Positions 6,059 to 64,000 of a stretch of 64,000 bases of DNA are shown one piece after another. The notes beneath the pieces are model-generated. The model was not told where the DNA came from and did not search any database. It saw only the letters and a program-made list of their open reading frames with translations. Source of the DNA: Diplonema papillatum (taxonomy: Eukaryota; Euglenozoa; Diplonemea; Diplonemida; Diplonemidae); assembly GCA_030068145.1 (NCBI GenBank), contig JAPJBO010000756.1, positions 1 through 64,000 of the forward strand. Reading direction: 5' to 3'. The position numbers and the translations under genes are program-made. Position 1 is the first letter of the stretch, and every line of letters begins with the position of its first letter.

Positions 6059-9000
6059 ATTAGAATGCAAAGAATCTGTGGCGATAATCTGCATCGCCGA
6101 CGGCGCGGTTATCTCTTCGCACGTGAAGTGTCATGCTTTCGCCTCTTTAGCTCGTCTTGATCGTCGCGCTCAGGCGCGCGTTTGGTGCTTCGCTTCTTCT
6201 TCGATTGCTCGTCGAGGTTCATCGGTTGCGCGTCGATTTCTGCTTTTTCTCGGCGCCTGGGCGATGGTCGTGGCACATCGACGCGTCCTTTGCGCCTTTT
6301 CGGTACCGGCTCCGCCGCGGAGTCCGATTGCCGCTTCTTCGCTGGCGTTGGTGCCGTCTTCCCGACCTTCGCTGCTGACGTCGGTGTTGATGTTGCGGGC
6401 TCTTGCTCGCCTTCTGCTGCTTCCGGCAGAACGAGCACCACGTTCTCTCGCTTCGCCTGTCTCGGCGCTGGCGCGGGGCTCTCCGGCTCCGCCTTCCTCT
6501 TCTTCGTCGTTGATTCTTCAGCTCTCGCCACGGCCGCCCGGTGGTGCCCCTTCCGACAGCACAGTTTGGGCCTTCGACTCCGCAAATCCGCGAGCCGGCT
6601 GCAATGCGCACACGTCGGCATGCCATGATCAAGGCACCGGTGGTGTCCGTTGCGGCAGCACTCCGCGATCGTCTTGCACGTCGCGCATTGCGTCAGGCGG
6701 TGCTGCGCGCAGAACTTCACCGCAAGGCCGTCGTCTTCCTTGTGGTGGGCCTTACAGCACCACGCCACCGACTTGCCCCGGCGCTTGCAGACGTCGCACT
6801 TCACCTTTTGGTGCTCGTGGCACACCCGCTCACCCCACTTTTCGTGTCGGGGAACCCCTTCCGGCACGTACCACGGATCCCCTCCGACGACTGCCGACTT
6901 CTTGCCTTTCTTCTTCTCCGTAGCGTCGTTGAACACCGCCCATCTCGCCGCACGCTCCGCCCTTCCACCTCCGTACGTCGGGAAAAGATCCATCCCCCAC
7001 GCCTCGCCGTTGAATCCGTGCCGAGCCGTCGTCAGCTGCGTCTCGAGCACTTCCATCGTCTCCGTACCACCACGGAAGATTGGCCTCATCTCGTACCCCG
7101 TGAGGCACGGCGGGGCTCCCACCGTTCTCAGCGACCCTATCGTCCCCAGTTTCCTTCCCGGCAGAGGCGGTTCGTCGCCGTTCCGCTCCAGCGCATCCCC
7201 GACGGTCTTCAAAAGCCTTGCGAGTACCCTCGCACGCATGCTCAACGGTGTCCCGTCCGTCGTTGCTACGACACTGCCTGGAAGGTCCAATCCGGTGTAT
7301 ACTTCAAAGTCGATGGCGAGCTCTGCCGTCGAGACGTCACCCGCCACCGACCAGCACATCCCATCCAGCCAATACTGCAGCGCCCGGAACCACCTCTCTC
7401 CCCCGACCGCCGCGAAGGTCCCCGGTCCAGCGATCGCTTCGAAATTCAGCCGGCGCGGGGGGCAGTCGTCAGGGTGCAGTTGTCTCCAGGGGTGGCCGAC
7501 CGCCCGGTCTCTTCCGTCTCTCTCCAGCCGTCGTCTCTCGTGCATGACCTCCGCCATGAACGTGTGCAGCACTTCGATGCTGACTCGACTTCCCTTCGGC
7601 AGAATCCCGTGTTCTTGCAGGCAGGGGGGCCAAGTCGAGCGATCCGCGCCAACAATTTCGGCATATTGGTGTTGCCCTCGGATTCGTTCGTACGCCCGGC
7701 ACTGCCACCAAATGTGGCCCAGAGTTTCTTCCGTCGCCTCGTCACAGCGTCTGCACAGCCCGTCACCTCCCCACAGCTTGGCAGCATGTGATTCCGTCAT
7801 CACCGACCCAGCTACGACCTCGGCAACGTCCCGCGCGGCCGTCAGCGTTGTCGACGCCTTCAGCCCGTAGGCATTCGTCGCGTTGAAGTCTACACCTGCC
7901 CGTACCCCTCCGAAGTCTGTGCGCCTCTTCTCAAGCTCCCCGAGTCGCCAGCCGTGAATCGCCTTTCTCAGGGTGTGCCCTCGCTCCCCCTTGCTTTGCC
8001 GTACCAGCCTCAGCACATTCCCTGCCCCGTCCTCGGCGTCGTCGAAATCTTCCGTCCATCGTATACCGAGCTTTTTTGCATGCTCGGCCGCAATACCGAC
8101 CGGTCCCCACGCGCGGACTCTGCTGCCATACGCCCGTCGAACTGTTGCGACGCGGGCCCTCCACGCCGGCCTTTTTCGGCACACTTCTGCGATCATGCCG
8201 AGTGACCGATACGGCAGCACTGCGTATGGGTCGAGTAAGTGGGCCTTGTTGAGAATGCCCAACACGGCCTCCTGCGCCCTATGCATCCTCACCGGGTCCC
8301 AGACGCCTCTGAGCAGTGCTGCGGTGAACTTCCCCAGCCCTCGCACCGTCGGGAGCGCGAACTCGGAGCCGTATGTCGCCGCCGGTAGAACCGCCATCGC
8401 CGCTAGCCCCGACCTCTGCGCCCTCGAGATCGGTAAGGCACCCAACCGTTCGGCCTCCTCTGCACGCTGGTCGTAGCGCAGGTCCGTTGTTCTTCGTGTC
8501 CGCTTCGTGCCGACTAGACACCCTACGATGGTGAGCTCCTCCTTCGTCGCGATTAGTGCGCCGCCTACCCGCAACTTCGCTTCATACCCCTTCGGCGTCC
8601 CAAAAGCAAACGTCTTCGGTATCCCGATCGACATGCCGGTGTTCGAACAAAATCTGTCGACTTCCACCAAGGCGTCCTGCAAGCAGGCTTCCCTGAGACG
8701 CGACAGGAGGGTGAGGTCGTCCGCGAAGGATTCGCTCGTCACCCCCCCCACGTCGTCCACTCTGCGCACCACGATGGACAGCAGCGCGTTGATGAGGATC
8801 ACGCTCAGGGGGCAGCCCTGCAGTATCCCATTGGTGGTGAAGAAGACACCTCCCACTCCCATGTGCAGCTTGTACCGCCTCCGTAGTCGCGCGTAAATGT
8901 CGCGCAGCGGCCCGAGGATTCTCTCATGGAGGCCCAGCTCCCCCACCAGCTTCAACACGATGTCTCGCGGCACCTTGTCAAAACACTTGGCAAAGTCTAA

Positions 9001-20213: not shown

Positions 20214-20293
20214 TGCGGCGTGATGATTACATCAACCCTGGTCCGTGTTTAAGAGCTCTTGGGCCATGAGATTGCTAAGGGAACTGATCCGCA
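20214..20293 (+). ncRNA. U18-like C/D snoRNA, copy 1
   Basis: Terminal stem TGCGG/CCGCA, box C GTGATGA, box D CTGA. The internal guide TGGTCCGTGTTT is complementary to the conserved LSU rRNA stretch AAACACGGACCA, the same target as human/yeast U18. This copy has GAACTGA at box D where most copies have GATCTGA. Confidence 0.85.
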
Positions 20294-20447
20294 ACCATCA
20301 ACTGTTTGGATCCACAGTGTGATGGACCTTTCTTCTGAGGGGCTCACGCACTAAAAGTCCGACTTATACGCAACCATCATCTCGCAGACATGTAGGGTCT
20401 CGTGCTGATATTTGCATCTGGTTCTTCACGAAGTGCTTCGCACCTTC

Positions 20448-20527
20448 TGCGGCGTGATGATTACATCAACCCTGGTCCGTGTTTAAGAGCCTTTGGGCCA
20501 TGAGATTGCTAAGGGATCTGATCCGCA
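20448..20527 (+). ncRNA. U18-like C/D snoRNA, copy 2
   Basis: Same boxes, stem and guide as copy 1. The D'-C' region reads CCTTTGGGCC. Confidence 0.85.
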
Positions 20528-20691
20528 ACCATCAACTGTTTGGATCCACAGTGTGATGGACCTTTCTTCTGAGGGGCTCACGCACTCAAAGTCCGACTTA
20601 TACGCAACCATCATCTGTTTGGGCAGCGCAGGCATGCAGGGTTTCGTGCTGATATTTGCATCTGGTTCTTCACGAAGTGCTTCGCACCTTC

Positions 20692-20775
20692 TGCGGTGTG
20701 ATGACTACATCAACCCTGGTCCGTGTTTAAGAGCCCCATCAGGGGCCATGAGATTGCTAAGGGATCTGATCCGCA
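20692..20775 (+). ncRNA. U18-like C/D snoRNA, copy 3
   Basis: Boxes, stem and guide present; the internal hairpin is longer (GCCCCATCAGGGGC). Confidence 0.85.
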
Positions 20776-20849
20776 TCTGTTCACTGCAGGCATGGAGTAT
20801 TTGTTGTACGATGTTTGCATCCGGTTCTCCAAGGATCGCTTCCCACCTT

Positions 20850-20929
20850 TGCGGCGTGATGACTACATCAACCCTGGTCCGTGTTTAAGAGCCCTTGGGC
20901 CATGAGATTGCTAAGGGATCTGATCCGCA
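20850..20929 (+). ncRNA. U18-like C/D snoRNA, copy 4
   Basis: Boxes, stem and guide present; short internal hairpin GCCCTTGGGC. Confidence 0.85.
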
Positions 20930-21013
20930 ACCATCAACTGTTTGGGCAGCGCAGACTGTAGGGTCTCGTGCCGATATTTGCATCTGGTTCTTCACGAAGT
21001 GCTTCGCACCTTC

Positions 21014-21093
21014 TGCGGCGTGATGATTACATCAACCCTGGTCCGTGTTTAAGAGCCCTTGGGCCATGAGATTGCTAAGGGAACTGATCCGCA
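21014..21093 (+). ncRNA. U18-like C/D snoRNA, copy 5
   Basis: As copy 1, including the GAACTGA variant at box D. Confidence 0.85.
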
Positions 21094-21257
21094 ACCATCA
21101 ACTGTTTGGATCCACAGTGTGATGGACCTTTCTTCTGAGGGGCTCACGCACTCAAAGTCCGACTTATACGCAATCATCATCTGTTTGGGCAGCGCAGGCA
21201 TGCAGAGTTTCGTGCTGATATTTGGATCTGGTTCTTCACGAAGTGCTTCGCACCTTC

Positions 21258-21341
21258 TGCGGTGTGATGACTACATCAACCCTGGTCCGTGTTTAAGAGC
21301 CCCGTCAGGGGCCATGAGATTGCTAAGGGATCTGATCCGCA
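21258..21341 (+). ncRNA. U18-like C/D snoRNA, copy 6
   Basis: Boxes and guide present; internal hairpin GCCCCGTCAGGGGC. Confidence 0.85.
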
Positions 21342-21415
21342 ACTGTTCACTGCAGGCATGTAGTATTTGTTGTACGATGTTTGCATCCGGTTCTCCAAGG
21401 TTCGCTTCCCACCAT

Positions 21416-21495
21416 TGCGGCGTGATGATTACATCAACCCTGGTCCGTGTTTAAGAGCCCTTGGGCCATGAGATTGCTAAGGGATCTGATCCGCA
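21416..21495 (+). ncRNA. U18-like C/D snoRNA, copy 7
   Basis: Boxes, terminal stem and guide present; short internal hairpin. Confidence 0.85.
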
Positions 21496-21626
21496 ATTGT
21501 TCACCGTTTGAGCAGTGCAGGCACGTAGGCGATATCTGGAGTGAGGAAATCAGAAACTCCCCAGAAAGGTGGTCCTGTCCTCTTAGGCACCCGGGTTTCC
21601 AAGGATTAAGGATTGTTCTCATCTTC

Positions 21627-21710
21627 TGCGGCGTGATGATTACATCAACCCTGGTCCGTGTTTAAGAGCCCCGTCAGGGGCCATGAGATTGCTAAGGGAT
21701 CTGATCCGCA
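21627..21710 (+). ncRNA. U18-like C/D snoRNA, copy 8
   Basis: Boxes, terminal stem and guide present; long internal hairpin. Confidence 0.85.
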
Positions 21711-21839
21711 CTTGTTCACCGTTTGAGCAGGCATGCAGGCGATATCTGAAGTGAGGAAATCAGAAACTCCCCAGAAAGATGGTCCCTGTCCTCTGACTCG
21801 TCTCTCTTAGGCACCCGATTAAGGATGGTTCTCATCTTC

Positions 21840-21919
21840 TGCGGCGTGATGACTACATCAACCCTGGTCCGTGTTTAAGAGCCCTTGGGCCATGAGATTG
21901 CTAAGGGATCTGATCCGCA
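21840..21919 (+). ncRNA. U18-like C/D snoRNA, copy 9
   Basis: Boxes, terminal stem and guide present; short internal hairpin. Confidence 0.85.
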
Positions 21920-22059
21920 CTTGTTCACCGTTTGAGCAGGCATGCAGGCGATATCTGAAGTGAGGAAATCAGAAACTCCCCAGAAAGATGGTCCCTGTCC
22001 TCTGACTCGTCTCTCGTAGGCACCCGGGTTTCCAAGGATTACGGATTGTTCTCATCTTC

Positions 22060-22139
22060 TGCGGCGTGATGATTACATCAACCCTGGTCCGTGTTTAAGA
22101 GCCCTTGGGCCATGAGATTGCTAAGGGATCTGATCCGCA
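22060..22139 (+). ncRNA. U18-like C/D snoRNA, copy 10
   Basis: Boxes, terminal stem and guide present; short internal hairpin. Confidence 0.85.
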
Positions 22140-22223
22140 ACCATCAACTGTTTGGGCAGCGCAGACTGTAGGGTCTCGTGCCGATATTTGCATCTGGTTC
22201 TTCACGAAGTGCTTCGCACCTTC

Positions 22224-22303
22224 TGCGGCGTGATGATTACATCAACCCTGGTCCGTGTTTAAGAGCCCTTGGGCCATGAGATTGCTAAGGGATCTGATCC
22301 GCA
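22224..22303 (+). ncRNA. U18-like C/D snoRNA, copy 11
   Basis: Boxes, terminal stem and guide present; short internal hairpin. Confidence 0.85.
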
Positions 22304-22434
22304 ATTGTTCACCGTTTGAGCAGTGCAGGCACGTAGGCGATATCTGGAGTGAGGAAATCAGAAACTCCCCAGAAAGATGGTCCTGTCCTCTTAGGCACCC
22401 GGGTTTCCAAGGATTAAGGATTGTTCTCATCTTC

Positions 22435-22518
22435 TGCGGCGTGATGACTACATCAACCCTGGTCCGTGTTTAAGAGCCCCGTCAGGGGCCATGAGATTGC
22501 TAAGGGATCTGATCCGCA
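22435..22518 (+). ncRNA. U18-like C/D snoRNA, copy 12
   Basis: Boxes, terminal stem and guide present; long internal hairpin. Confidence 0.85.
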
Positions 22519-22639
22519 CTTGTTCACCGTTTGAGCAGGCATGCAGGCGATATCTGAAGTGAGGAAATCAGAAACTCCCCAGAAAGATGGTCCCTGTCCT
22601 CTGACTCGTCTCTCTCTGATAAGGATCGTTCCCTTTTTA

Positions 22640-22722
22640 TGCGGTGTGATGACTACATCAACCCTGGTCCGTGTTTAAGAGCCCCTCAGGGGCCATGAGA
22701 TTGCTAAGGGATCTGATCCGCA
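22640..22722 (+). ncRNA. U18-like C/D snoRNA, copy 13
   Basis: Boxes, terminal stem and guide present; internal hairpin GCCCCTCAGGGGC. Confidence 0.85.
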
Positions 22723-22807
22723 ACTGTTCATTGTTTGAGCAGCGCGAGCATGCAGGGTTTGTTGTACGATGTTTGCATCCGGTTCTCCAAGGTTCACTTC
22801 CCACCAT

Positions 22808-22887
22808 TGCGGCGTGATGATTACATCAACCCTGGTCCGTGTTTAAGAGCCCTTGGGCCATGAGATTGCTAAGGGATCTGATCCGCA
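22808..22887 (+). ncRNA. U18-like C/D snoRNA, copy 14
   Basis: Boxes, terminal stem and guide present; short internal hairpin. Confidence 0.85.
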
Positions 22888-22957
22888 ATTCGTTGTTTGA
22901 GCACCAGGCAGTGTCGGCTTTATTGCATGGTGTTTCTATGGTTCGCTTCCCATCTTC

Positions 22958-23037
22958 TGCGGCGTGATGACTACATCAACCCTGGTCCGTGTTTAAGAGC
23001 CCTTGGGCCATGAGATTGCTAAGGGATCTGATCCGCA
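22958..23037 (+). ncRNA. U18-like C/D snoRNA, copy 15
   Basis: Boxes, terminal stem and guide present. It is the last copy before the inserted transposon, which begins 66 bp downstream. Confidence 0.85.
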
Positions 23038-23159
23038 CTTGTTCACCATTTGAGCAGGCATGCAGGCGATATCTGAAGTGAGGAAGTCAGAAACTCCCCA
23101 GAATGGGGTGGCCATGGACATCGGGTCGACGGGGAGGATCACAAATTATCATGGGCTGT

Positions 23160-23270
23160 CATGTGATCTGTTGTGATTCCGTGTGATTTTTGTTGATTTT
23201 TTGTGATTTAGAACGATTTTTTTGTGATTTTTACTGATTCCTTGTGATCTAGAACGATTTTCTGTGAGGT
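23160..23270 (+). repeat. TGTGATTTTT subterminal repeats, left
   Basis: About seven degenerate units of TGTGATTTTT/TTGATTTTT just inside the left inverted repeat. A similar run at 26,505-26,610 is in the same, not inverted, orientation. Confidence 0.7.
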
Positions 23271-23369
23271 CGTCAGCAGGCAGATGCTGTAGTGCACCTG
23301 TTTTAGCGGTTTACCTGTGGGCAGTTTTTTTTAGAGAGTGTTAACACAACCACTTTTGGAAAAAAGAGG

Positions 23370-24234
23370 ATGCTTTCAGCACCATGGACCCAGCCAATGT
23401 CGCAGCCCTGCCGAACCGGTTACGCACGTCGCGGTCACGTGCAGATGAGTGTGGGGTGCATGGATTTGGCAGATCTGTTCTCCAAGCTCGAATTGTTGGG
23501 GATGGAGCTTTCTTCTGGGACTGTATTCGGTTACAACGGTGACGAGTGGGTATTGTTGGGATCCGGTATTCCCGTCTCCTGCTTCAGCCGCGTCGTATTG
23601 CAGGACCCTGTGCACTCTCGTGCAGCTTCAGCATCTACGATTCCCGTTGTCCCCTTTCCTGCAGACGTTCTCGGTCGGAGTCTCCTCAGTGCATGTCCCC
23701 TCAGCACACGACAAGCTGTACGCGCAGCAGATTATTTGGCGCAGGAATGCGCAGACGAAGGTATCCCGATAAGAATACAAAGCCTGACGCGGCACACCGC
23801 ACGAGCTCTCTGCCTGCGAGAGCTGTACCTGCGAGACGCGCTCTTCTCCCGCCTTGTCGGAACGGCAGTTCTTGGACTGGAAACAGCTGCCACTCCTCTG
23901 AGCTGGAGCAAAAGCGGGTACCGCAGTACTGCCACTTGGACCGATGCCAAGACCGGCAAAAACATGTCGTACCCGCTCTACAGGGCTGGGGTGCGGTACG
24001 GAGGTAGACAGGGGCAGCGACAGCGACTTCGCTTCAAAGCTAAAGCAGCTGTCCGGCTACGTCCACGACAACGCGGCTTTCACGCAGTGGCTGCGTAAAA
24101 AGTCCGTTGTTCTGCAAGGTTCCTTGTTCTGGGAGAAAGTGAGCGGCATTCGGTTCGGTGGACTGACGGCTGCAGCCTACGCGCTCACGCGTGTTGTCGG
24201 GGACAAGCGCATGTTTGAATGGGCTTTGTCGTGA
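23370..24234 (+). CDS. Transposon ORF, N-terminal part of a possible Fanzor/TnpB-like protein
   Basis: Open frame from 23370 to 24098, overlapped by a second frame from about 23,944 to 24,234 that reads as the better continuation after about 24,000 (LKQLSGYVHDNAAFTQWLRK, then LFWEKVSGIRFGGLTAAAYA). So there is either a frameshift or a small intron near 24,000. I cannot assign the N-terminal 200 residues. The helical Arg/Lys/aromatic segment resembles the middle of eukaryotic TnpB-like (Fanzor) proteins only in general character. Its place just upstream of the candidate RuvC-like end (24,383-24,640) is the main reason to suspect one protein. Confidence 0.35.
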
Positions 24235-24325
24235 ATTGCTGTCAGTGGCGCACGAGGTAAGTCTGTGCCTGCGCTGCAAAAGTTTTTTGCAGACCTCGTG
24301 AACCACGTTTTGAGCCTCATCTACT

Positions 24326-24349
<24 letters not shown>

Positions 24350-24359
<10 letters not shown>

Positions 24360-24640
24360 TTCTAATTAAAGACGCGCATGAATGGACCAATGAGATTCCT
24401 ACATGTTCACCGACGGGCTCATGCGACGGGCCCGTCGCGTCACAGTTTTTGAGCCGAGTTGACCTCAGACATCGAGGAGCTTTTGGCTTTTCGTTGCTGC
24501 GCAGTTTGCTGCAGCTGCTTCCGCGCCAGGGGACTTCTGCAGTGAGCGGCAACTCGTGCGGGACATGTTCGGTGATGAACCGGCGAGATCTCGATGTGAT
24601 GAAAGGGGCGAATAACTTGTTGCATGCTATGGCGTACAAC
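24350..24640 (+). CDS. Candidate Fanzor/TnpB-like C-terminal segment (RuvC-III plus zinc motif)
   Basis: Plus-frame reading EWTNEIPTCSPTGSC, then about 50 residues on NSCGTCSVMNRRDLDVMKGA followed by NNLLHAMAY. In TnpB/Fanzor proteins the end carries an E-x-x-T-S..C..C box, a second C-x2-C, and NRD-V-x4-N-I/L, where the Asp is the third catalytic RuvC residue and Asn follows six residues later. Here D-V-M-K-G-A-N has that spacing, with an extra Leu after RD. A GTAAGT at 24,255 could be a 5' splice site. Family assignment is inference from short motifs only; the element is probably degraded, as upstream frames contain stops. Confidence 0.35.
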
Positions 24641-24840
24641 AACGACAATTGTGCGACAGAGCGTAGCCTCACCTGGGTTGACGAAAAAGTGTCCCTGGCA
24701 GTTATCCCCAAAGGCGAAGAAAAGACTTCGAGACGAGGCCAAAGAAGCAGGCGCCAAAAGACAGAAGTCGCCGGCCACTCAGCAGACGAGCAAAGGAACC
24801 AGCATCCGCAAGTAGCAGATACCGTAAACAGAAATAAGTT

Positions 24841-25869
24841 GGACCGGACAAAACGCCAACTCACCTATTTTGAGCTCTCGCGGTCCAACTTTTTTCGGGG
24901 GGTCCTGTGTACTTAGTGAAATCTCGCGGCTGGCCACTGAACAGCACTCGCTTCACCTCCGTAGTTTGATATCGCGCGCATGAGCCCGCCACCGGTGTTC
25001 TAGAACACTGCGCGGCACTGCGTACCCCGCCGTGTCCCATCAAGCACCAACCATTGGTAGCCATGGCCCTGTGGTAGGTAATCACAAGCGAAAGGATGCT
25101 TGATCGCGATCGGTTGTGGTTGTCGTGCCGAGGGCCCATTGCTTTGGTAGAGCAAACGCAAAAATGCAGAGTGTAAACGAGGTGGATCGAGGTTGGCCGA
25201 CAGTGAAGGAAAAAGTATGAGCCCAGTCTACCGACAGAGTGTTTGCACTTTCTAAGCACTCCGGTTCAGCAGACGCCTTCACTATTCCTCATGCTGAGTT
25301 GCTGACGAAGGACGTAGTCACAGCGCCAGTCACCCGGGCAACAGTAAGCAGCATGAACAGCTGCTTTTCTGACAACAGGGCCGGACGGCCCCTTGTTTCC
25401 CGCCACTGTCTTCCCGTCATCGAGTTTGACAGAATCGTCATAAAACCGCTTCGCGCCTCCTTTGGACAGCGGTCTCTCGTTCCCGTCCGCTGACCACTGC
25501 CTGATTGCACCGTTCAAGCCGTTCGCCCTTACGTAGTTCACGATCTTTTCCTTGTCGGTTTCGCACCACTCCACCCCCTTCTTGCCATGGCGAAGTGCTC
25601 TTTGCCTTGTTCTTGTCGCGCACTTCTGCTTGGATCGGCCAACGCCTGCTTCTTTGTCACCGCGCCGTTTCCTGCCACGGCTTGTTCGAGTGCTTCGCAT
25701 CTCTCGCGTTCGGCTACCCATTTGGCAAGAGACATTTCTTATTTCACCTGATGCCCCTCGGCCCAACCCCGACTACGTGGAAACGTGCCCGGGCGGAAAT
25801 AAGGTGGGCCGGACAAAATGGTCCAATTGGTTTGTCGTCGTGCGGTCCAACTTTTGTCCGGTCCGATGC
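24841..25869. mobile_element. Nested small element with GGACCGGACAAAA ends
   Basis: Left end GGACCGGACAAAA (24,841) and right end TTTTGTCCGGTCC (to 25,869) are perfect inverted repeats of 13 bp. Each end also holds an internal GCGGTCCAACTTTT, so each roughly 60-bp end can fold on itself. No target duplication is obvious. It contains a minus-strand transposase-like fragment. Probably a nested, decayed DNA transposon. Confidence 0.5.
25266..25766 (-). CDS. Transposase-like N-terminal fragment in nested element
   Basis: Minus-strand reading has KIVNYVRANGLNGAIRQW in one frame and, overlapping it in another frame, RGRPALLSEKQLFMLLTV. A GRP-x-L turn followed by a helix is common in the DNA-binding N-terminal part of DDE transposases. 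The frame change suggests a broken gene. No DDE core is visible. Confidence 0.3.
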   Translation of the reverse strand: MGRGASGEIRNVSCQMGSRTREMRSTRTSRGRKRRGDKEAGVGRSKQKCATRTRQRALRHGKKGVEWCETDKEKIVNYVRANGLNGAIRQWSADGNERPLSKGGAKRFYDDSVKLDDGKTVAGNKGPSGPVVRKAAVHAAYCCPGDWRCDYVLRQQLSMRNSEGVC

Positions 25870-26504
25870 TAGCATCAAGTCTTTTTGGGTGAAAGGGGCT
25901 AAAGGGAGAGTAAACCTGGGAAAATCTGCCCCGAACACTAAACTACGACTTTTCCTCCGAGTACTAATTTCGGGTTTGATTGAACCAGCCGTCAGCCTGC
26001 TAGCCAGAACGCCTCCGATTGCGTCACTATCGGCGCAGTCATCCTCTGTGACAGGGCCGCGGTTCGCGCCGCGCCTCCGACGTAGCGACTTCCGCCCGCC
26101 GTAGTCGCGCTTTCTTCGTGTTTACTCTGTCGTCCCCTCCTGTGTCTTCACATTAAACTGCATCTTCCCTCATCTACTGAAAGAAGAAAATCCGCGATCT
26201 GTCCGGCTAGTCAAGAATTCGAGAGTTTCGTGCCGCTTATCTTACCCCTTCCTCTTTGTCTGACTTGCGCTACTACTTCGCCAAGGCCGATGTGCCCGAA
26301 GGAATGCGAAGAGTTCAGCCTTCCATACGCATAGACGCCCCAGTCATGTCGACTCGTGCCCAGAACGTTGCGTTTCTGACGCCCACTATGCCTGCTGCGT
26401 GAGCAGTCTACACTTCTTGCAACGTCACAACGTGGTAAGCCACAACTGACAGGTGATAGATACAGCAGGGTAGCCAGGTTTGAAGGAATCCTGCATTTTG
26501 CGTT

Positions 26505-26610
26505 GTTTTGTGATCCTCTGCGTTATTTTCTGATTGGAATTGACCGTATGTGATATCATGTGATTTTTCTTGATTTTTTGTGATTTGGATTGATTTTTTG
26601 GGATTCCAAA
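26505..26610 (+). repeat. TGTGATTTTT subterminal repeats, right
   Basis: TGTGATATCATGTGATTTTT and similar units just inside the right inverted repeat of the 3.6-kb transposon. Confidence 0.65.
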
Positions 26611-26744
26611 AGTTGACCCATGACAATTTGTGATTCCCCCCGTCAACCCGATGACCATGACCACCCCATCAGAAAGATGGTCCCTGTCCTGTGACTCGTC
26701 TCTCTCTGATATGTACCCGGGTTCCAAGGATCGTTCCCATCTTC

Positions 26745-26826
26745 TGCGGCGTGATGACTACATCAACCCTGGTCCGTGTTTAAGAGCCCCTCAGGGCCAT
26801 GAGATTGCCAAGGGATCTGATCCGCA
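26745..26826 (+). ncRNA. U18-like C/D snoRNA, copy 16
   Basis: First copy after the inserted transposon. Boxes, stem and guide present; GATTGCCAAGGGAT in place of GATTGCTAAGGGAT before box D. Confidence 0.83.
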
Positions 26827-26910
26827 ACTGTTCATTGTTTGAGCAGCTCGAGCATGTAGGGTTTGTTGTACGATGATTGCATCCGGTTCTCCAAGGTTCG
26901 CTTCCACCTT

Positions 26911-26993
26911 TGCGGCGTGATGAATACATCAACCCTGGTCCGTGTTTAAGAGCCCCTCAGGGGCCATGAGATTGCTAAGGGATCTGATCCGCA
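26911..26993 (+). ncRNA. U18-like C/D snoRNA, copy 17
   Basis: Last copy. Box C is followed by ATACATC instead of TTACATC or CTACATC; otherwise intact. Confidence 0.83.
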
Positions 26994-47330: not shown

Positions 47331-50044
47331 GCGCGGGTTCCGTTGACAGGAAAGCCTCCGACGCCCTGCGATTTCCACCCGCCACACAGTAGTACAGTAG
47401 TACGGGGGCTGGTTCCTGCATTCTGTAGCGAAAAAAGATCGCGTTGGCAGAAACGGTGGATGATATTTGTCACAGGGTTGGTGGAATGAGAGCGCGAGTC
47501 TGGGAACTCTGGTGATCATTAGATTCACGGCTCAATGAAGCTAGCGCACGAGGTTTGCCTGTTCTCGTAACTATTTCCGATGCCAAATCGATGGTCTGTT
47601 CTACCTCTCAAAGAGGCGAGCCCATCTTCTGCAAGGTGCCCTCTTTACGTGGGTTGGACAACCGCGGGCGAAGCAGCGGTAGCTGAGGCACACACAGTAC
47701 CGCTGCCCTTGCAATCGGAGCGGGGGGCGGGGTGCTGTTGCATCCTCTTCTACTTGCCCCTCTAATATCGCCACGGTTTCCTCATCTCCTCGAGCCTCGC
47801 CAAAACAGCAACCCGGATCCACCCTTCCCACACGCAATGAGAACTACGAAAATCCGAAGAGAGCGAAAATTGGCGTACGCCCCGCCCCCCCTCCCGCCTC
47901 CCGCCCCTTTGTTTCGAACAAGTTGAGCCAGACCTACCCCCTCCCACCATCCCCTCTTACTCTCCTGGAATACATCGAACCCGTCGGCCGGTGTTTCCCG
48001 CGGTCGATCAGGGGGGCCTATCTGGGTTAATCACGGCAATGGTCCTGGCTCGCAGACTGTTGCGCTGCTCGACGGGGGTTTAGGCCAGCGGCGTCCGGGA
48101 TGCGTAGTTGAGCCGGCCGTCCCTATCTCTTGAAACTGCATCGAAGTGCTCTGCCGCTATCACGGTCCACCACGGTCTATCAGGTCCATCCCTAGTGCCT
48201 GGAGAGCTGCATCAAATTGCCCGGTGCTGTATGAACCTTCGAGTGAAAACAGGGTCCGTGGCTCTGCGCTACCGCCCTCACGTTGGTGCGAGTGGTTATT
48301 ATTAGGGGGGGCAGAACTACAGCCGCCGCCGTAGGCCGTGCAATTGCCAAGAAGAAGAGAGCCCTGAAGGTTTCAGGCCAAGAACGCGAATGCTCCACGG
48401 CGATTGTCAGCACTAGTCTGAGGTGGCTACCCCAGACGTACCGTGAAACACCTGTAGACAGGCCCCCGAGAGACCACGCAGTTCCTGGTCCCTCACACCC
48501 GCAGTCTTGAAGCTAGCCCTATCGTGAAGTTGGTAACCGGTATGAGGTGCCAACGACTGAGTACAAACAACACCCTCCCGCTCCTGCCCCTTCACACACA
48601 CCACATACACACGCACACACACTGGGCTAACACCGCGTCGTTACCCATCATTGAATTCCACCCACTCACACGCACTCGACCCCGCGGATGCTCTAGCTAT
48701 GCACTTCTGTTGTTGTTTTGTTTCAAGTCCATAGCTAGAATTGTGTACCCACCCTTTTCCCTCCACCCCATGGGGATTCACCAGTGCTTTTTCTCTCTCT
48801 CTCCAGCAAACTCGTCATCCGCCGCAAAAAAAAAAAAGAAAAAAAAAAAGCACAGCCACGCACAAAACCAGACCCGACTGTACGCATGGTGTTGTCGTGA
48901 ACCGCATGTCAGTTCAACCCCCTAACGGACGGAAGTTTCCCGGGCGCAGAAAGACTTCTGGGAAATTACCCGGACAAGGTGAAAAATTTACGCCTCCCAA
49001 AAATGGGGAACCTGTGGCATTGTATCGTGACGCCTATTCACAGGAGCAAACATCGATCCTTTCTGACGTGCCTTCACTCTTGGGTGTCAAATTCCTGTTT
49101 CGACATAAGTATGCGCGTCCGTAAAGGGTTAAACGCTAAAAAATAAAAGCCGCAGTGGCGTGGCCATGACTATGTGCGTGCAACTGCCTTCAGGTGGGCT
49201 AGTCTGACACTTGCTGTCGTCGGGAAAAAAAAAAAAAAAAAACAGTCTAAAAACGAAGGGTCTCGTGGCTCAGGGCGGCAGCTCAAAACAATAAGCTCAA
49301 TCCTGGGTTCCCGTGCGAAAGTGAATGCAACTTCTTTTGCGTGAAGTAGCAACGATTCTATCGGCTCCCTGCGATGGGAGTGACGTGAATTGCTCAATGA
49401 GTGTGTGGGGGCGATGGAAACCGGGTGCGGGCGTACTGTACTCCTTCCCTTTCCCGTGTCTACCTCCAGGCTGGAGATGAACGAACCTTTGCGTTGCCGG
49501 CACTGAAAAGCGAGCTATGCCACAACACAGCAACTCACCAAAATAACCCGCACCACGTGAAGCACCGCAAGTGCCGCGAAACCCAAGCACCACGCTGCGA
49601 GAAAATACATATAAACGCTGACAACAGACCGGTACGGGCGACAAGGCAACCCCTGCTCAACTTGTAGAACGTGGGGGGCCCAAGACTACACTCCACGAAG
49701 GAATGTACTTGGTGTTCCCGGACATGGCTAGCCATAGCCCATAACGAAAGCGTGCACTAAATATACAACCCGTAACCACATAGCCCTTTCTTGCTCTAAG
49801 AGAACCCATTCATGAACGGTCACACGGAGACCCTAAAACCTCGGATTTTCAAGCGAACTTTAACTCTAATAAACGCTGGAACCCATTCATGAACGGGCAC
49901 ACGGAGACCCTAAAACCCCGGAATTTCAAGCGAACTTTAACTCCAAAAACGAGTGAGCTCCGCCCATCGCTGCACGAACGAAAGAAGGCGCCAGGTTTGA
50001 CCTCAGCACAACCGAACCTCTCGCAGGTTTCGGCAACTGGGAAT
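47331..50044. other. Long spacer without recognised gene
   Basis: Contains homopolymer and pyrimidine tracts (48,830, 49,230), an AC-tract/CATTGAATTCCA linker like that at 30.7 kb (48,590-48,670), and a short direct repeat at 49,805-49,945 (CATTCATGAACGG(T/G)CACACG plus TTTCAAGCGAACTTTAACTC, twice). No coding region can be supported. Confidence 0.5.
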
Positions 50045-51246
50045 ACAACTGGCGACGGTGCAAGAAGCGAGGGTAAAGGGAGTGTGTCTTCTCTACAACT
50101 GGCGACGGTGCAAGAAGCGAGGGTAAAGGGAGTGTGTCTTCTCTACAACTGGCGACAGTGCAAGAAGCGGGGGTAAAGGGAGTGTGTCTTCTCTACAACT
50201 GGCGACAGTGCAAGAAGCGGGGGTAAAGGGAGTGTGTCTTCTCTACAACTGGCGACAGTGCAAGAAGCGAGGGTAAAGGGAGTGTGTCTTCTCTACAACT
50301 GGCGACAGTGCAAGAAGCGGGGGTAAAGGGAGTGTGTCTTCTCTACAACTGGCGACAGTGCAAGAAGCGAGGGTAAAGGGAGTGTGTCTTCTCTACAACT
50401 GGCGACAGTGCAAGAAGCGGGGGTAAAGGGAGTGTGTCTTCTCTACAACTGGCGACAGTGCAAGAAGCGAGGGTAAAGGGAGTGTGTCTTCTCTACAACT
50501 GGCGACAGTGCAAGAAGCGAGGGTAAAGGGAGTGTGTCTTCTCTACAACTGGCGACAGTGCAAGAAGCGGGGGTAAAGGGAGTGTGTCTTCTCTACAACT
50601 GGCGACAGTGCAAGAAGCGAGGGTAAAGGGAGTGTGTCTTCTCTACAACTGGCGACAGTGCAAGAAGCGGGGGTAAAGGGAGTGTGTCTTCTCTACAACT
50701 GGCGACAGTGCAAGAAGCGAGGGTAAAGGGAGTGTGTCTTCTCTACAACTGGCGACAGTGCAAGAAGCGGGGGTAAAGGGAGTGTGTCTTCTCTACAACT
50801 GGCGACGGTGCAAGAAGCGAGGGTAAAGGGAGTGTGTCTTCTCTACAACTGGCGACAGTGCAAGAAGCGGGGGTAAAGGGAGTGTGTCTTCTCTACAACT
50901 GGCGACGGTGCAAGAAGCGAGGGTAAAGGGAGTGTGTCTTCTCTACAACTGGCGACAGTGCAAGAAGCGGGGGTAAAGGGAGTGTGTCTTCTCTACAACT
51001 GGCGACGGTGCAAGAAGCGAGGGTAAAGGGAGTGTGTCTTCTCTACAACTGGCGACAGTGCAAGAAGCGGGGGTAAAGGGAGTGTGTCTTCTCTACAACT
51101 GGCGACAGTGCAAGAAGCGAGGGTAAAGGGAGTGTGTCTTCTCTACAACTGGCGACAGTGCAAGAAGCGGGGGTAAAGGGAGTGTGTCTTCTCTACAACT
51201 GGCGACGGTGCAAGGAGCGAGGGTAAAGGGAGTAGTGTGTCTTCGA
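50045..51246 (+). repeat. 50-bp minisatellite, about 24 units
   Basis: Unit ACAACTGGCGACAGTGCAAG followed by AAGCG(A/G)GGGTAAAGGGAG and TGTGTCTTCTCT, exactly 50 bp, repeated from 50045 to the last, slightly altered unit at 51,195. Two positions vary (CAGTG/CGGTG; GCGAGG/GCGGGG). GCGAGG and GCGGGG alternate over much of the array, giving a 100-bp higher-order period. Confidence 0.97.
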
Positions 51247-57420: not shown

Positions 57421-57584
57421 CTCTTCGTATTGTCTGACAAGAACTGCCTAGAAGAAAGGGAGAAGTAAGAACACGTCTTTGTAGCTGATAGCACTAGCGC
57501 AAGGGAATGTTGAGTGACTGCCTTAACCGGGGAGTCGAGCTTGGGCGAGGTCACCAGGGGGAAAGGGCGGGTGGGAAAACCTGA

Positions 57585-59192: not shown

Positions 59193-60249
59193 GTGTTTTC
59201 GAAGACCGCAGCGCTGGAAGCCTTGGAGCAAGGGGCGGCTCGCGTTGTCGTCGCGGTGCCGCCGAGCGGCGAAGGAAGGACCGCGGGTCTGCAGCTGCTG
59301 CAGGACCTGCCGCAGGGGACGACGCAGGCCATGTTCAGCGTGAGCGCAGCCGGCGGCGACGGCTGGGCGTGGGAAGAAGGCGAAGGACCGCGCCTGACCG
59401 AGAAGTCGGTTCTCGCTGCGATCGGCGAGGCTGGCTTTTCGGCAGCCCCTGCGCGCGCCCCCGACTTGCTCTTGCGCATCGCCACGGGCGGCCCGGCGCC
59501 CGCGTCGGAAGCGGCGCTTTCGAAGATCGAAAGCCTGCTCGCCGGCCTCAAGTCCCTCGGCGCCGTCCCTTCGGTCGCCTGCGCGGGGCTGTCGCTGGGG
59601 CAGACGGTGGCCCTCGCGGCTAGCGGCGCTGCCGGCGGCTTCGCACGGTTCCCGCATCCATCTCAGCATGCCCCAGGGAAGGTGAAAGGTGCGCTGCTCT
59701 CGCGGTCTGTCCCAGCGAGGGTTCAGGCCTCCGGTCTGCAGTACAGCAGCGTCAACCTGCAGTGCCTTGTGCCGAGCCTCGAGGTCAAGAACGGAGTGGT
59801 CGAAGCCGCGACGGAATCCGGGTCGGAAAAGCTGCCCCTGGAGGAAGCTCTCTCGCGGTACAGCACGGTGGGCGAGGTGGCGGTCATCGACGTCGACTCG
59901 TCCGTCGGCGCGGCCGGCGGGCCGGCCGCGCGGGAACAGCTGCGCGGGCTGTTCAAGAGGTACCCCATTCGCGTCGGCGGCGGGGTCCGCACGGTCGACG
60001 AGGCGCTGAAGCTGCTCAACGAGGGAGCCGCGAAGGTCATCGTCGGGACCGCCGCCACCCGCGAATTCCTCGCTCAGCTCCCGAGGGACCGCGTCGTCGT
60101 CAGCGTCGACGCTCAGTACTCCCCCCCCGCCTCGGACCAAGACGCCGGCTCGTGGGTCACTTCGGAGGGTGCTCCGGTCGCTGACGTCATCGCCGACCTC
60201 GCCGAGGCTGCGGGGCACTTCCAGGTCACGTTCCTCGAGCAGTCGCCAG
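59193..60249 (+). CDS. Histidine-biosynthesis fusion, exon 3: HisF-like rest and HisA-like barrel
   Basis: Acceptor TGCCTGCCAG|GTGTTT, phase 0, matching exon 2. Starts VFSKTAALEALEQGAARVVV, where HisF has the GADKVSIG strand, then a weakly conserved stretch. From LVPSLEVKNGVV it follows HisA: VAVIDVDSSVGAAGG (VDLDGA..G), YPIRVGGGVRTVDEALKLLN, EGAAKVIVGTAA and LPRDRVVVSVDAQ. The usual first catalytic Asp (PAID) appears as Glu (PSLE), while the second, in SVDA, is kept. HisA isomerises ProFAR; activity here is uncertain. Ends CCAG|GTATTT, phase 1. Confidence 0.7.
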
Positions 60250-60277
60250 GTATTTCTGCCGGGATTTTTTTTTCTTG

Positions 60278-60730
60278 AGTGGGATGAACACGCAGTCGTT
60301 TCCCCTCTGAGGTTTTATGGTCGCAAACGCATCCCCGTGTGCAGCGGGCGAGAGTGGGATGAACACGCAGTCTTTTTCCCTCTGAGGTTTTATTGTCGCA
60401 AACGAATCTCCGTGTGCAGCGGGCGTGAGAGGGATAAACACGCAGTCTTTTTCCCTCTGAGGTTTTATGGTCGCAAACGCATCCCCGTGTGCAGCGGGCG
60501 TGAGTGGGATAAACACGCAGTCTTTTTCCCTCTGAGGTTTTATTGTCGCAAACGCATCCCCGTGTGCAGCGGGCGTGAGTGGGATAAACACGCAGTCTTT
60601 TTCCCTTCTGAGGTTTTATGGTCGCAAACGCATCCCCGTGTGCAGCGGGCGAGAGTGGGATGAACACGCAGTCTTTTTCCCTCTGAGGTTTTATTGTCGC
60701 AAACGAATCTCCGTGTGCAGCGGGCGGTGC
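60278..60730 (+). repeat. Six tandem units of about 74 bp in HIS intron 3
   Basis: GAGTGGGATGAACACGCAGT, CTTTTTCCCTCTGAGGTTTT, A(T)GGTCGCAAACGCATCCCC, GTGTGCAGCGGGCG. Units alternate between TATGGTCGC and TATTGTCGC and between GGATGAACAC and GGATAAACAC. Confidence 0.95.
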
Positions 60731-61942
60731 CCACGGCACACGGCACCAAGCATTCATGCGGAGCATCGAGCTCGTGTAACATCACACCTAGTGTTCCTTC
60801 CGCGTGGAGGCACGCGGAAGAGGGCCTCCGCAGGGGTGCCTACCCCCGCGAGTAATAAGGTGCCTCTTCCAAGGCAGGTTTTATCTAGCAAGGTGGCCGG
60901 TGCTCTCCTCACGGGCCCCGACGCACGCCGCGTCCTCCTCCAGTCGTTTCTCTCCACACACACTCTCTCTCTCTCTCCGCATGTGATACGAAGAAGCTAG
61001 GTTCGTCACGGCAGCCATCCCAGAGAAGGGAAATCAAATCGAAGCAAGCATCTGCTGTGTGCTCGTCGGGGCCGTGTGTGCGTAAACCGGTGTGGGGGCC
61101 TGGTCAACCTCATCACTATAGGGCGCAACGGTTTCGCGACCGTATTGGACAGTCAGGATTGCCGGGGGTGGGTTCGTTCATGAGGAAGTCTGCGGTGTCC
61201 GACTAGCTAGCTGTCGTATAGAGTGCGACCAGTTGGCTGTTCCCGACTAATTAGCTGATGCAGGGCTGCCAGACTAGTTAGCTGTTGTGTAGGGTGCGAC
61301 TACTTTAATGGTTGTATTCTACGGTGTCCGACTAGCTAGCTACTGTCATTCATTACGGGCGTGGTCGTGGTGTCGGTCGCAAAAGCCGCTTTGCTAGCCA
61401 AAGAGAGAGATAGAGAGAAAAAGAGCGCCAGAGAGAAAAGAAAAGATAACAACCCAACACAGGACGAGAAGGAAGGAGCAGCACCACCAGAACCGAGAAA
61501 GAACAAAAAAAGAAGAATACTACGCACCAAACCCACCACCCTCCCCAACCCGGGCTTCCTTTTTACCCGTGAATAGGTGCTACGGGAGTATCTGGCAACC
61601 GCTGCTCAACAGTGCTCACGTGGTTCATGTACTTAAAAGAACTCAACGCTTAACAGTGCTCACGTGGGCGGTGTCTTCGGGCAGCACCTCGTGATGTTCG
61701 CATCACAAAACAAAGAAGACAGTGAAATGGTCGCTACCTGGTCGGGTTTCGCTCGCGACCGTTTCCAGAACAATCCTTCACTAAATCCGCGGTTAAAGAA
61801 CCTGGCCTCAGTGGTGCAAGCACCACGCGCTCTTCAAACCCAAGAAACATTGTCCCCCCTTTAACCCATTCCAAGCACGTTCTTGCAATCCCCCCCCCCC
61901 TTTGAGTGAACTTGCACTCTAAAAATCAACAACACGAAGCAG
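60731..61942. other. Remainder of HIS intron 3
   Basis: Contains loose repeats of CGACTAGCTAGCTGT at 61,195-61,345, a purine-rich stretch at 61,400-61,520 and, near 61,866-61,930, the tail of family B plus the GAACTTGCACTCTAAAAATC block. No gene. Confidence 0.5.
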
Positions 61943-62223
61943 GCCTCGATCTCGCCTTCGCGCTGAAGTTGGCCTCGGCGTGCAAAGCGTCGAATGCGCA
62001 GCTGACGCTAGCCGGGCAGGTCCAGACCGCGGCGGAGGTCGCTGCGGTCGACGAGATGGGGCTCGAGTGCCTCGTTTCCTCGACGGTGCTCGGGGGCAAG
62101 CTGCCGCTCTCCGCCGCGATCACTGCCGTCATCAAAACAGACCGCACAGACGGCTTGTACGCAACTGTAGTCGTCGACCATGCCAACGGCCGTCCGCTGG
62201 GCATGTGCTACTCGAACGCCGAG
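61943..62223 (+). CDS. Histidine-biosynthesis fusion, exon 4: HisA end and start of HisI
   Basis: Acceptor CACGAAGCAG|GCCTCG; the phase fits exon 3 and gives a Gly codon across the junction. LTLAGQVQTAAEVAAVDEMG and CLVSSTVLGGKLPLSAAI correspond to the last strands of HisA. TDRTDGLYATVVVDHANGRP then LGMCYSNAE is the opening of phosphoribosyl-AMP cyclohydrolase (HisI), very close in plan to yeast HIS4 (TDRPDGLYTTLVVDQ ... LGLVYS). Ends GAG|GTATAT, phase 0. The zinc-binding part of HisI must lie beyond the window. Confidence 0.75.
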
Positions 62224-63017
62224 GTATATAGCGGGAGGCTGCTCTTTCCACACAGTAGTTTTCAGGTTAGTTGTGTGAGTTTGATCAAAGTAACGCCAAG
62301 GCAGCCCTTACAAAGACCAGCCACAGTCAACACCGCGTGGGTGCGGGCTTTTTGTATCCATCATCATGTTTCAAACCCCCGACTGCCCGTAACCTGGAAG
62401 CACCCAGAGGGCTGTCGGTGTTACAAAGGTGCAGTTGCCCGCATCCATCCGGCAATCAGCTCGCATCGGGGAGGTGACACTACCCACCTGGACAAGGTGT
62501 TCTGCTGCCCAATTTATTATCTTCCCATATTGACGAAGATCATCCGGAGACTTAAACCCTGGTTTCAAGCGAACTTGCACTCTAAAATCCAACTTCTTAT
62601 AAGCACCGGGATCTTCGACGAACACGCAACCCGGTGAACTTAATCAAGAGTCGAAGATTAGCGTCGAAACTTCCTGGCTTTTCACGCCGTATCAGAACGA
62701 CCACACCCAATCCCAAACACCCCCTAAACGCGTCAGGGGACTTCTCAAGGTTTCGCAACCGAACGTCCCCCGAAACGAGCGGCACCCTCTCACTTTTCTC
62801 AACCCCCTCCATACCCAAGCCTCTACGGTCAACCGGAGACTTTAAAATACCGACCGTCTTATCCACAAATAACGCTATAAAAGGTGCACCGTGTGCTGGA
62901 TTCGGGTCCACTGTAGGGCTACCGGCCAGGTAGTACTGTGCAAATTCCAACCGAAGCTCTGCACACCGCAGTTGACCTGTTGCGTTCTTGCAGGAGCGAG
63001 CTTCTCCCCGTGTCAGA
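62224..63017. other. HIS intron 4, part before the hairpin array
   Basis: No conserved coding continuation of HisI was found in any frame. It includes TTTCAAGCGAACTTGCACTC near 62,565. The intron continues into the hairpin RNA array and past the window end. Confidence 0.5.
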
Positions 63018-63081
63018 AGCTTCCTTATGTACTTCGCAGCACTGCTTGTGAGTTGTTGAAGAATGGCGGAAGCTGAGATAT
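63018..63081 (+). ncRNA. Single-hairpin H/ACA-like (AGA box) RNA, copy 1
   Basis: Lower stem AGCTTCC/GGAAGCT, pocket strands TTATGTA and AATGGC, upper stem CTTC-g-CAGC / GTTG-tt-GAAG (one G-U), then G-AGA. The upper-stem base to AGA distance is 14 bases, as in H/ACA RNAs. Confidence 0.7.
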
Positions 63082-63163
63082 AGGCATTCAGAACTAGGAC
63101 ATAGCGTTTCGACACCCACCGAATGCGTAACACTTGTGCATGTAGAAGCCACCTTCTGTCAGA

Positions 63164-63227
63164 AGCTTCCTTATGCACTTCGCAGCACTGCTTGCGAACT
63201 GTTGAAGAATGGCGGAAGCTGTGATAT
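63164..63227 (+). ncRNA. H/ACA-like hairpin RNA, copy 2 (box TGA)
   Basis: Lower stem intact; one mismatch in the upper stem (CAGC against ACTG); TGA stands in place of AGA, so possibly inactive. Confidence 0.6.
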
Positions 63228-63314
63228 TGGCAACGCCAAGCGGCCTTCAAGGTCGTTTCGACATCCTACAAAATACGCAACTATTCGCGGTGCAAAAAGC
63301 TACCCTTAGTCAGA

Positions 63315-63378
63315 AGCTTCCTTATGTACTTCGCAGTACTGCTTGTGAACTGTTGAAGAATGGCGGAAGCTGAGATAT
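63315..63378 (+). ncRNA. H/ACA-like hairpin RNA, copy 3
   Basis: Upper stem CAGT/ACTG replaces CAGC/GCTG of copy 6, a compensatory C-G to T-A change. AGA box present. Confidence 0.7.
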
Positions 63379-63476
63379 TAACGGAGAACCACTGTTGTGG
63401 AGGTGTTTTTGGAGCCTTCACATGGCGTTTCGACATACCACGTAACCCTTGTGCACAGAAGCTATCATGTGCCAGA

Positions 63477-63543
63477 AGCCTCCTCCTTATGTACTTCGCA
63501 GCACTGTTTGTGAGTTGTTGAAGAATGGCGGAGGCTGAGATAC
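63477..63543 (+). ncRNA. H/ACA-like hairpin RNA, copy 4
   Basis: Lower stem AGCCTCC/GGAGGCT replaces AGCTTCC/GGAAGCT, a compensatory T-A to C-G change. Three extra bases (TCC) follow the 5' strand of the lower stem. AGA box present. Confidence 0.7.
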
Positions 63544-63608
63544 TAGCGGCTTCAACCACTCTTTTGGAGGTCGTTTTTGGAGCCGCCAGCGCTCAGACCT
63601 GTGTCAGA

Positions 63609-63673
63609 AGCTTCCTTATGTACTTCGCATCACTGCTTTGTGAGCTGTCGAAGAATGGCGGAAGCTGCGACAT
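63609..63673 (+). ncRNA. H/ACA-like hairpin RNA, copy 5 (box CGA)
   Basis: Lower stem intact; upper stem CATC/GCTG has one mismatch; box reads CGA. Confidence 0.55.
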
Positions 63674-63787
63674 TGACAGAGTCAATCACCCTGTTGTGTG
63701 GAGAGGGTTTTGAAGCCTCCAGAGCCAAGACATTTCGTTTCGACATCCCACTGAGTGGGTAATCTTCGTGCAGAATCTTGTGTCAGA

Positions 63788-63851
63788 AGCTTCCTTATGT
63801 ACTTCGCAGCACTGTTTGTGAGCTGTTGAAGAATGGCGGAAGCTGAGATAT
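63788..63851 (+). ncRNA. H/ACA-like hairpin RNA, copy 6
   Basis: Best-formed copy: AGCTTCC/GGAAGCT, CTTC-g-CAGC / GCTG-tt-GAAG, loop ACTGTTTGTGA, AGA box. Confidence 0.72.
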
Positions 63852-63961
63852 TGGCAAAGTCAATCACCGTTGTGGAGAGGGTTGTGAAGCCTCCAGAGCT
63901 AAGACATTTCGTTTCGACATCCCACTGAGTGGGTAACCTTCGTGCAGAATCTTGTGTCAGA

Positions 63962-64000
63962 AGCTTCCTTTATGTACTTCGCGGCACTGTTTGTGAGCTG
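63962..64000 (+). ncRNA. H/ACA-like hairpin RNA, copy 7, cut by window end
   Basis: AGCTTCC, pocket strand TTTATGTA, CTTC-g-CGGC, loop and the start of the 3' strand GCTG are present; the rest is outside the window. Confidence 0.6.

Follow-up and report, generated by a model that had tools for sequence, protein, structure and literature searches.

The analysed stretch of DNA (hereafter the window) comprises positions 1 to 64,000 of contig JAPJBO010000756.1 in the 271-Mb eukaryotic assembly of Diplonema papillatum. Towards its end, an array of short repeats lies within a gene for histidine biosynthesis, the exons and introns of which are given in Table 1 together with the seven tandem repeats that start inside the window. 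These repeats are spaced at 132-179 bases, and the core of each, about 69 bases long, forms a single hairpin.

Table 1. Parts of the host gene and hairpin repeats of the window locus (contig positions)
Feature	Position	Strand	Remarks
Host exon with PF00977 (His_biosynth)	59193..60249	+	upstream of the array; start provisional
Host exon	61943..62223	+	precedes the array; spans the boundary between the HisA-like and HisI parts
Array intron 1	62224-64389	+	8 complete copies and one truncated; GT at 62224, AG at 64388-64389
Copy 1	63014..63082	+	hairpin core, AGA box
Copy 2	63160..63228	+	box TGA; 5' guide UAUGCA
Copy 3	63311..63379	+	upper stem CAGT/ACTG, compensated; AGA box
Copy 4	63473..63544	+	lower stem AGCCTCC/GGAGGCT, compensated; left arm longer by 3 bases; AGA box
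Copy 5	63605..63674	+	box CGA; upper stem with 1 mismatch
Copy 6	63784..63852	+	AGA box
Copy 7	63958..64000	+	interrupted by the window end; reaches contig position 64027
Host exon	64390-64596	+	PF01502
Array intron 2	64597-66335	+	4 complete copies and a half copy; GT/AG ends
Host exon	from 66336	+	PF01503

Hairpin repeats in introns of a histidine-biosynthesis gene

The host is a HisA-HisI-HisE gene, and its sense strand carries 12 complete copies of the repeat, eight and four in successive introns. The introns are delimited by exon homology and by their GT and AG ends, that is, from sequence rather than from RNA. The exon preceding the array gave no match when searched alone against Pfam; in blastp, it matches the bacterial fusions P0007 (E 6.7e-17), P0005 and P0001. 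An earlier interpretation made from the letters alone (the sequence-only reading) had placed the array in an intron of a histidine-biosynthesis gene, and the homology of the exons to PF00977, PF01502 and PF01503, along with the blastp matches, bears this out, in sense orientation. The preceding intron of the same gene (60250-61942) holds a 75-base repeat in six copies that match at 94% (60276-60726); inspection by eye recognised no snoRNA boxes in it.

Each hairpin consists of a lower stem (AGCUUCC/GGAAGCU), a pocket (UUAUGUA/AAUGGC) and an upper stem (CUUC/GAAG, then CAGC/GCUG). The sequence-only reading had described seven repeats sharing this hairpin, and all seven starts were located, the seventh copy running past the window end. 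Both of the double changes that it reported are present, AGCCTCC/GGAGGCT in the copy at 63473 and CAGT/ACTG in that at 63311. Two other copies depart from this pattern: in copy 63160, ACTG faces an unaltered CAGC (an uncompensated change), and in copy 63605, CATC faces GCTG with a mismatch. The AGA box ascribed to the repeats is confirmed in part, being found in four of the six copies complete within the window and replaced by TGA in copy 63160 and CGA in copy 63605. The distance of 14 bases from the base of the upper stem to the box was recovered in the copies found by a geometric scan.

A box C/D-like RNA is also encoded in the window, in 17 tandem copies on the plus strand (20220-26987), with 0 found on the window's minus strand. 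The copies display a C box (GUGAUGA), a D box (CUGA), a terminal stem no shorter than 5 pairs and an internal helix of GAGCCC/GGGC type and varying length, and have 12 bases complementary to 28S AAACACGGACCA (L050:6827). Since this array accompanies the AGA array, the 64-kb window appears to hold at least two tandem arrays of a single snoRNA each. A 50-base repeat of about 24 copies (97% matching) occupies 50044-51238. Searches of the window with Rfam at gathering scores (0 matches) and with ARAGORN found nothing.

Conservation and compensation at two loci

A second array is located on the minus strand of another contig (C248), where 20 complete copies were counted and BLAST lists 21 places; the two loci thus have 32 complete copies in all. 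Together, the loci have 35 places with the 5' part, three of which were dropped for a missing 3' part. The copies were chosen by patterns overlapping the pocket letters (one substitution or set variants permitted), so the constancy of the pocket, with AAUGGC in 32 of 32 complete copies and UAUGUA in 31, is partly a product of selection; the BLAST lists of array copies are independent of these patterns. The box, 1 nt past stem I, is AGA in 27 of the 32 copies, AGC in three, TGA in one and CGA in one. Downstream of the C248 array, on the same strand, lies an open stretch of 464 codons.

The upper stem reads CUUCG-AUGCUC/GAGCAU-C-CGAAG on C248, as against CUUCG-CAGC/GCUG-UU-GAAG at the window locus. 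Since the C248 stem differs yet pairs, while the pocket is the same and the AGA tail mostly so, it is structure and not sequence that is preserved, as the sequence-only reading had argued. The lower stem is a perfect 7 bp in 11 of the 12 window-locus copies (in copy 63473 via its compensated change) but in only two of the 20 second-locus copies (AGCCUCC/GGAGGCU); a further 16 of the latter carry a C.A mismatch at the fourth pair, and two have a different left arm. In the window-locus copy 65508, the lower stem is degraded. Uncompensated stem changes in copies beyond the window had been named in advance as evidence against the sequence-only reading, and the outcome is divided: the 16 mismatched second-locus stems and the degraded copy 65508 count on that side, whereas copies beyond the window retain the pocket and show compensated changes in the upper stem.

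The edges of the hairpin also bound the conserved region, the mean identity among the same 12 window-locus copies being 90.5% in the core versus 57.2% and 53.0% in the 50-base flanks. In an alignment of 26 distinct rows, 94.8% of cells are paired; displacing the partners by 1-3 columns lowers this share to 27.7-48.9%. The alignment had been fitted to a model built from 7 window-locus rows, which favours the structure; it was used for counting pairs because in the MAFFT alignment the lower stem of the second locus stood one base off register. Double-sided changes affect four pairs (26 cells). The percentage paired, the number of double-changed cells and the covariation score all lie above 500 of 500 shuffles, the count of double-changed pairs is not unusual (105 of 500 shuffles reach it), and the variety of pair types stands out weakly (36 of 500 shuffles reach the observed value). 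As the rows derive from two related arrays, these changes represent few events that are independent.

Folding z-scores are modest in 11 of the 12 window-locus cores (-1.15 to -2.49), +0.77 in the degraded copy 65508, and -2.85, -5.01 and -5.07 in three second-locus cores. Part of the pocket is closed in the minimum-energy fold, which weighs against the guide reading, as do the modest z-scores. Ten spacers of 60-140 bases gave z-scores of -1.49 to +1.05 and no shared structure. Several spacers of the window-locus array carry a CGTTTCGACAYCC motif (for example, 63102-63118 and 63262-63278), which we take to resemble an RNA polymerase III B box.

Complementarity of the pocket to 18S rRNA

In the 18S rRNA of the organism itself, the pocket has the partner GCCAUU-[U]G-UACA, with 6 + 4 = 10 Watson-Crick pairs. 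The site, 18S CCCUGCCAUU[U]GUACACACCGCCC in an rDNA stretch (C15:97000-106900, L050), is the sole strong partner on the rRNA strand, where no second place offers at least 8 pairs, wobble included; on the opposite strand, four places of 8-9 pairs occur (wobble allowed). The target that had been predicted from the pocket, GCCAUU-UN-UACAUAA, is therefore matched in 18S rRNA by GCCAUU-[U]G-UACA, the one such site in the scanned rDNA, and the rRNA search that the sequence-only reading had suggested returned a single strong match. This search covered L050 and four 3-kb loci around spliced-leader exon copies. The spliced-leader loci yielded two wobble matches to the pocket, one of 11 pairs and one of 8; both lie in L054, and neither falls inside the spliced-leader exon. 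Among 3000 shuffled pockets, a threshold of 10 pairs, including 4 or more per side, was reached by six with Watson-Crick pairs only and by 524 once G-U pairs were allowed; thus, the strength of the target lies in its all-Watson-Crick pairing.

The target U stands in the context GCCAUU-U-GUACACACC; provided that the 18S rRNA terminates in GGATCATTA, it lies 168 nt before the 3' end. In the human 18S sequence of 1869 nt, a count from the 3' terminus puts the following G at 1693 and so aligns the target U with human U1692. It corresponds to human 18S psi1692, just before GUACACACCGCCC of the decoding region. Position 1692 is used as the SNORA70 site in one report (PMC9610020) and is assigned to SNORA64 instead in another (PMC7760958), probably through an exchange of the two names. 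In the T. brucei SSU, psi2116 and psi2146 are reported (PMC10662448).

Genome-wide, the 12-letter target occurs 300 times, versus 8 for a reversed control. Pieces of 18S rDNA seem to be dispersed over many contigs, and the two inspected (L057 and L058) are 18S copies or fragments with diverging flanks. About 3600 scattered 28S pieces are reported in the Diplonema papillatum genome (PMC10161547), and the rDNA unit spacing of 7.6 kb found here agrees with the same source.

Class assignment and relation to known guide RNAs

The box of the repeats had been regarded as the euglenozoan AGA variant of ACA. The spliced leader AACCAACGATTTAAAAGCTACAGTTTCTGTACTTTATTG, presumably that of Diplonema, is represented in the genome by its last 34 bases: with the first five omitted, it is found 610 times at up to 2 mismatches, and 0 times reversed. 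This leader is listed among the euglenozoan rows in a table of PMC3795323, and AGA replaces ACA in Euglenozoa (PMC2613932), both of which uphold the assignment.

The H/ACA-like RNAs of trypanosomatids are described as single stem-loops of 57-91 nt having a stem I of 5-8 bp (usually perfect), usually an A one base 5' of it, AGA 1-3 nt past it and 3 nt before the 3' end, and non-conserved flanks (PMC2613932). According to the same source, the upstream pocket side measures 5-11 nt, stem II is perfect over at least 3 bp, the pseudouridine lies 13-16 nt before AGA, and the rRNA duplex has 3-9 bp per side; these RNAs are pseudouridylation guides and are destabilised by CBF5 knockdown. For the Diplonema repeats, the mature RNA of copy 6 is predicted to be a single stem-loop of 65 nt (63787-63851), the ends being inferred from the A preceding stem I and from AGA+3. 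The AGA, where present (27 of 32 complete copies), lies 1 nt after stem I, the 3' end itself being a prediction. An A precedes stem I, typically as CAGA followed by AGCUUCC at the window locus and as AAGA followed by AGCCUCC in most second-locus copies. The candidate pseudouridine is 14 nt from AGA, stem II has 4 bp (CUUC/GAAG), the upstream pocket side measures 6-7 nt in typical copies and 10 in copy 63473, and the 18S duplex has 6 + 4 Watson-Crick pairs. The flanks are 53-57% identical versus a core mean of 90.5%. A canonical two-hairpin H/ACA snoRNA, in which an H box is followed by a second conserved hairpin and a terminal ACA, was considered and rejected, as the ten spacers folded show no second conserved hairpin and the 3' flanks are 53% identical.

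Scanning 68 kb of the contig with the published geometry and a minimum of 10 pairs gave 11 candidates on the plus strand, nine of which are array copies, all directed at the same U; the minus strand gave one, and 12 shuffles together gave 15. Other geometric candidates have their AGA at 57453 on the plus strand (10 pairs) and at base 6168 of the reverse complement on the minus strand (10 pairs). An AGA-hairpin candidate at 26597-26678 (+), with 6+6 Watson-Crick pairs to 18S (L050:4973), lacks the required fold and was taken as a chance match.

Taken together, these features make it highly probable that the repeats are genes for single-hairpin, AGA-box H/ACA-like snoRNAs of about 65 nt, placed in HIS introns and guiding the pseudouridylation of an 18S U; the interpretation offered by the sequence-only reading is, on comparison of sequences, supported. 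Excision from the pre-mRNA or intron would release the RNA, to which H/ACA proteins of the Cbf5 type would bind. Its pocket would pair with 18S rRNA through AAUGGC:GCCAUU and UGUA:UACA, leaving U-G unpaired beneath the upper stem, 14 nt before AGA, and the enzyme would convert that unpaired U to pseudouridine.

It is quite unlikely that the repeats instead encode a trypanosomatid-type AGA-like RNA that is not a Cbf5-dependent guide, with an 18S match that is incidental or serves rRNA processing: a class that is structurally alike yet persists on CBF5 knockdown is known (PMC2613932), but the Diplonema pocket fits a conserved 18S site in the exact pseudouridylation register, 14 nt from AGA. An intronic minisatellite, whose unit folds by chance and whose copies are alike through recent duplication, with no RNA function, would suit a tandem-repeat-rich genome (52 TRF rows in the window; many gene-adjacent repeats in Diplonema, PMC10161547). 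This origin is rendered very improbable by copies that conserve the hairpin and not their flanks, by two loci having one pocket and differing upper stems that nevertheless pair, and by an 18S target that pairs by Watson-Crick rules throughout and coincides with a known pseudouridine. Least probable of all is that the hairpins form a regulatory cluster, microRNA-like or of another kind. The conserved arms, the upper stem and loop varying between loci and a minimum-energy fold that closes part of the pocket could speak for it, but the internal loop of 6-7 nt would make a poor dicing substrate, and the AGA spacing and in-register 18S target would be unexpected in such a hairpin.

As regards the guide snoRNA assignment, the novelty lies in the organism and in the arrays, which are homogeneous and intronic; the RNA type is already known, kinetoplastids and Euglena possessing single-hairpin H/ACA RNAs (PMC2613932). 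No diplonemid guide snoRNA was found in the literature searched, and the paper on the Diplonema papillatum genome (PMC10161547) does not use the word snoRNA in its main text. The single-hairpin form in a third main lineage would make that form probably ancestral to Euglenozoa. Furthermore, one uridine of 18S rRNA is singled out as a predicted modification site, and anonymous intron repeats of the Diplonema genome can be snoRNA gene arrays. An improbable but conceivable extension is that diplonemids keep modification guides as large homogeneous tandem arrays, some of them in introns of metabolic genes, with the dose of a decoding-region pseudouridine guide following HIS transcription, which could tune ribosome modification to amino-acid supply.

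Among known systems, human SNORA70 (U70) is a two-hairpin H/ACA RNA, unlike the single-hairpin Diplonema form. Both point to the same 18S position, psi1692 (PMC9610020), with no sequence relationship claimed. With the trypanosomatid H/ACA-like snoRNAs (PMC2613932), a typical window-locus copy has in common one hairpin, an A preceding stem I, an AGA placed 1 nt after that stem, a predicted pseudouridine 14 nt from AGA and duplexes of 6 + 4 bp; its stem I of 7 bp agrees as well, whereas that of the second locus is usually imperfect. Euglena gracilis shares the single-hairpin H/ACA form, as compared by description and not by sequence (PMC2613932), and has many multi-copy, linked guide snoRNA genes (PMC2784804). 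The arrangement sets Diplonema apart, since here a single RNA is encoded in homogeneous tandem arrays, of which one is intronic, whereas the trypanosomatid genes are described as clustered (PMC2613932).
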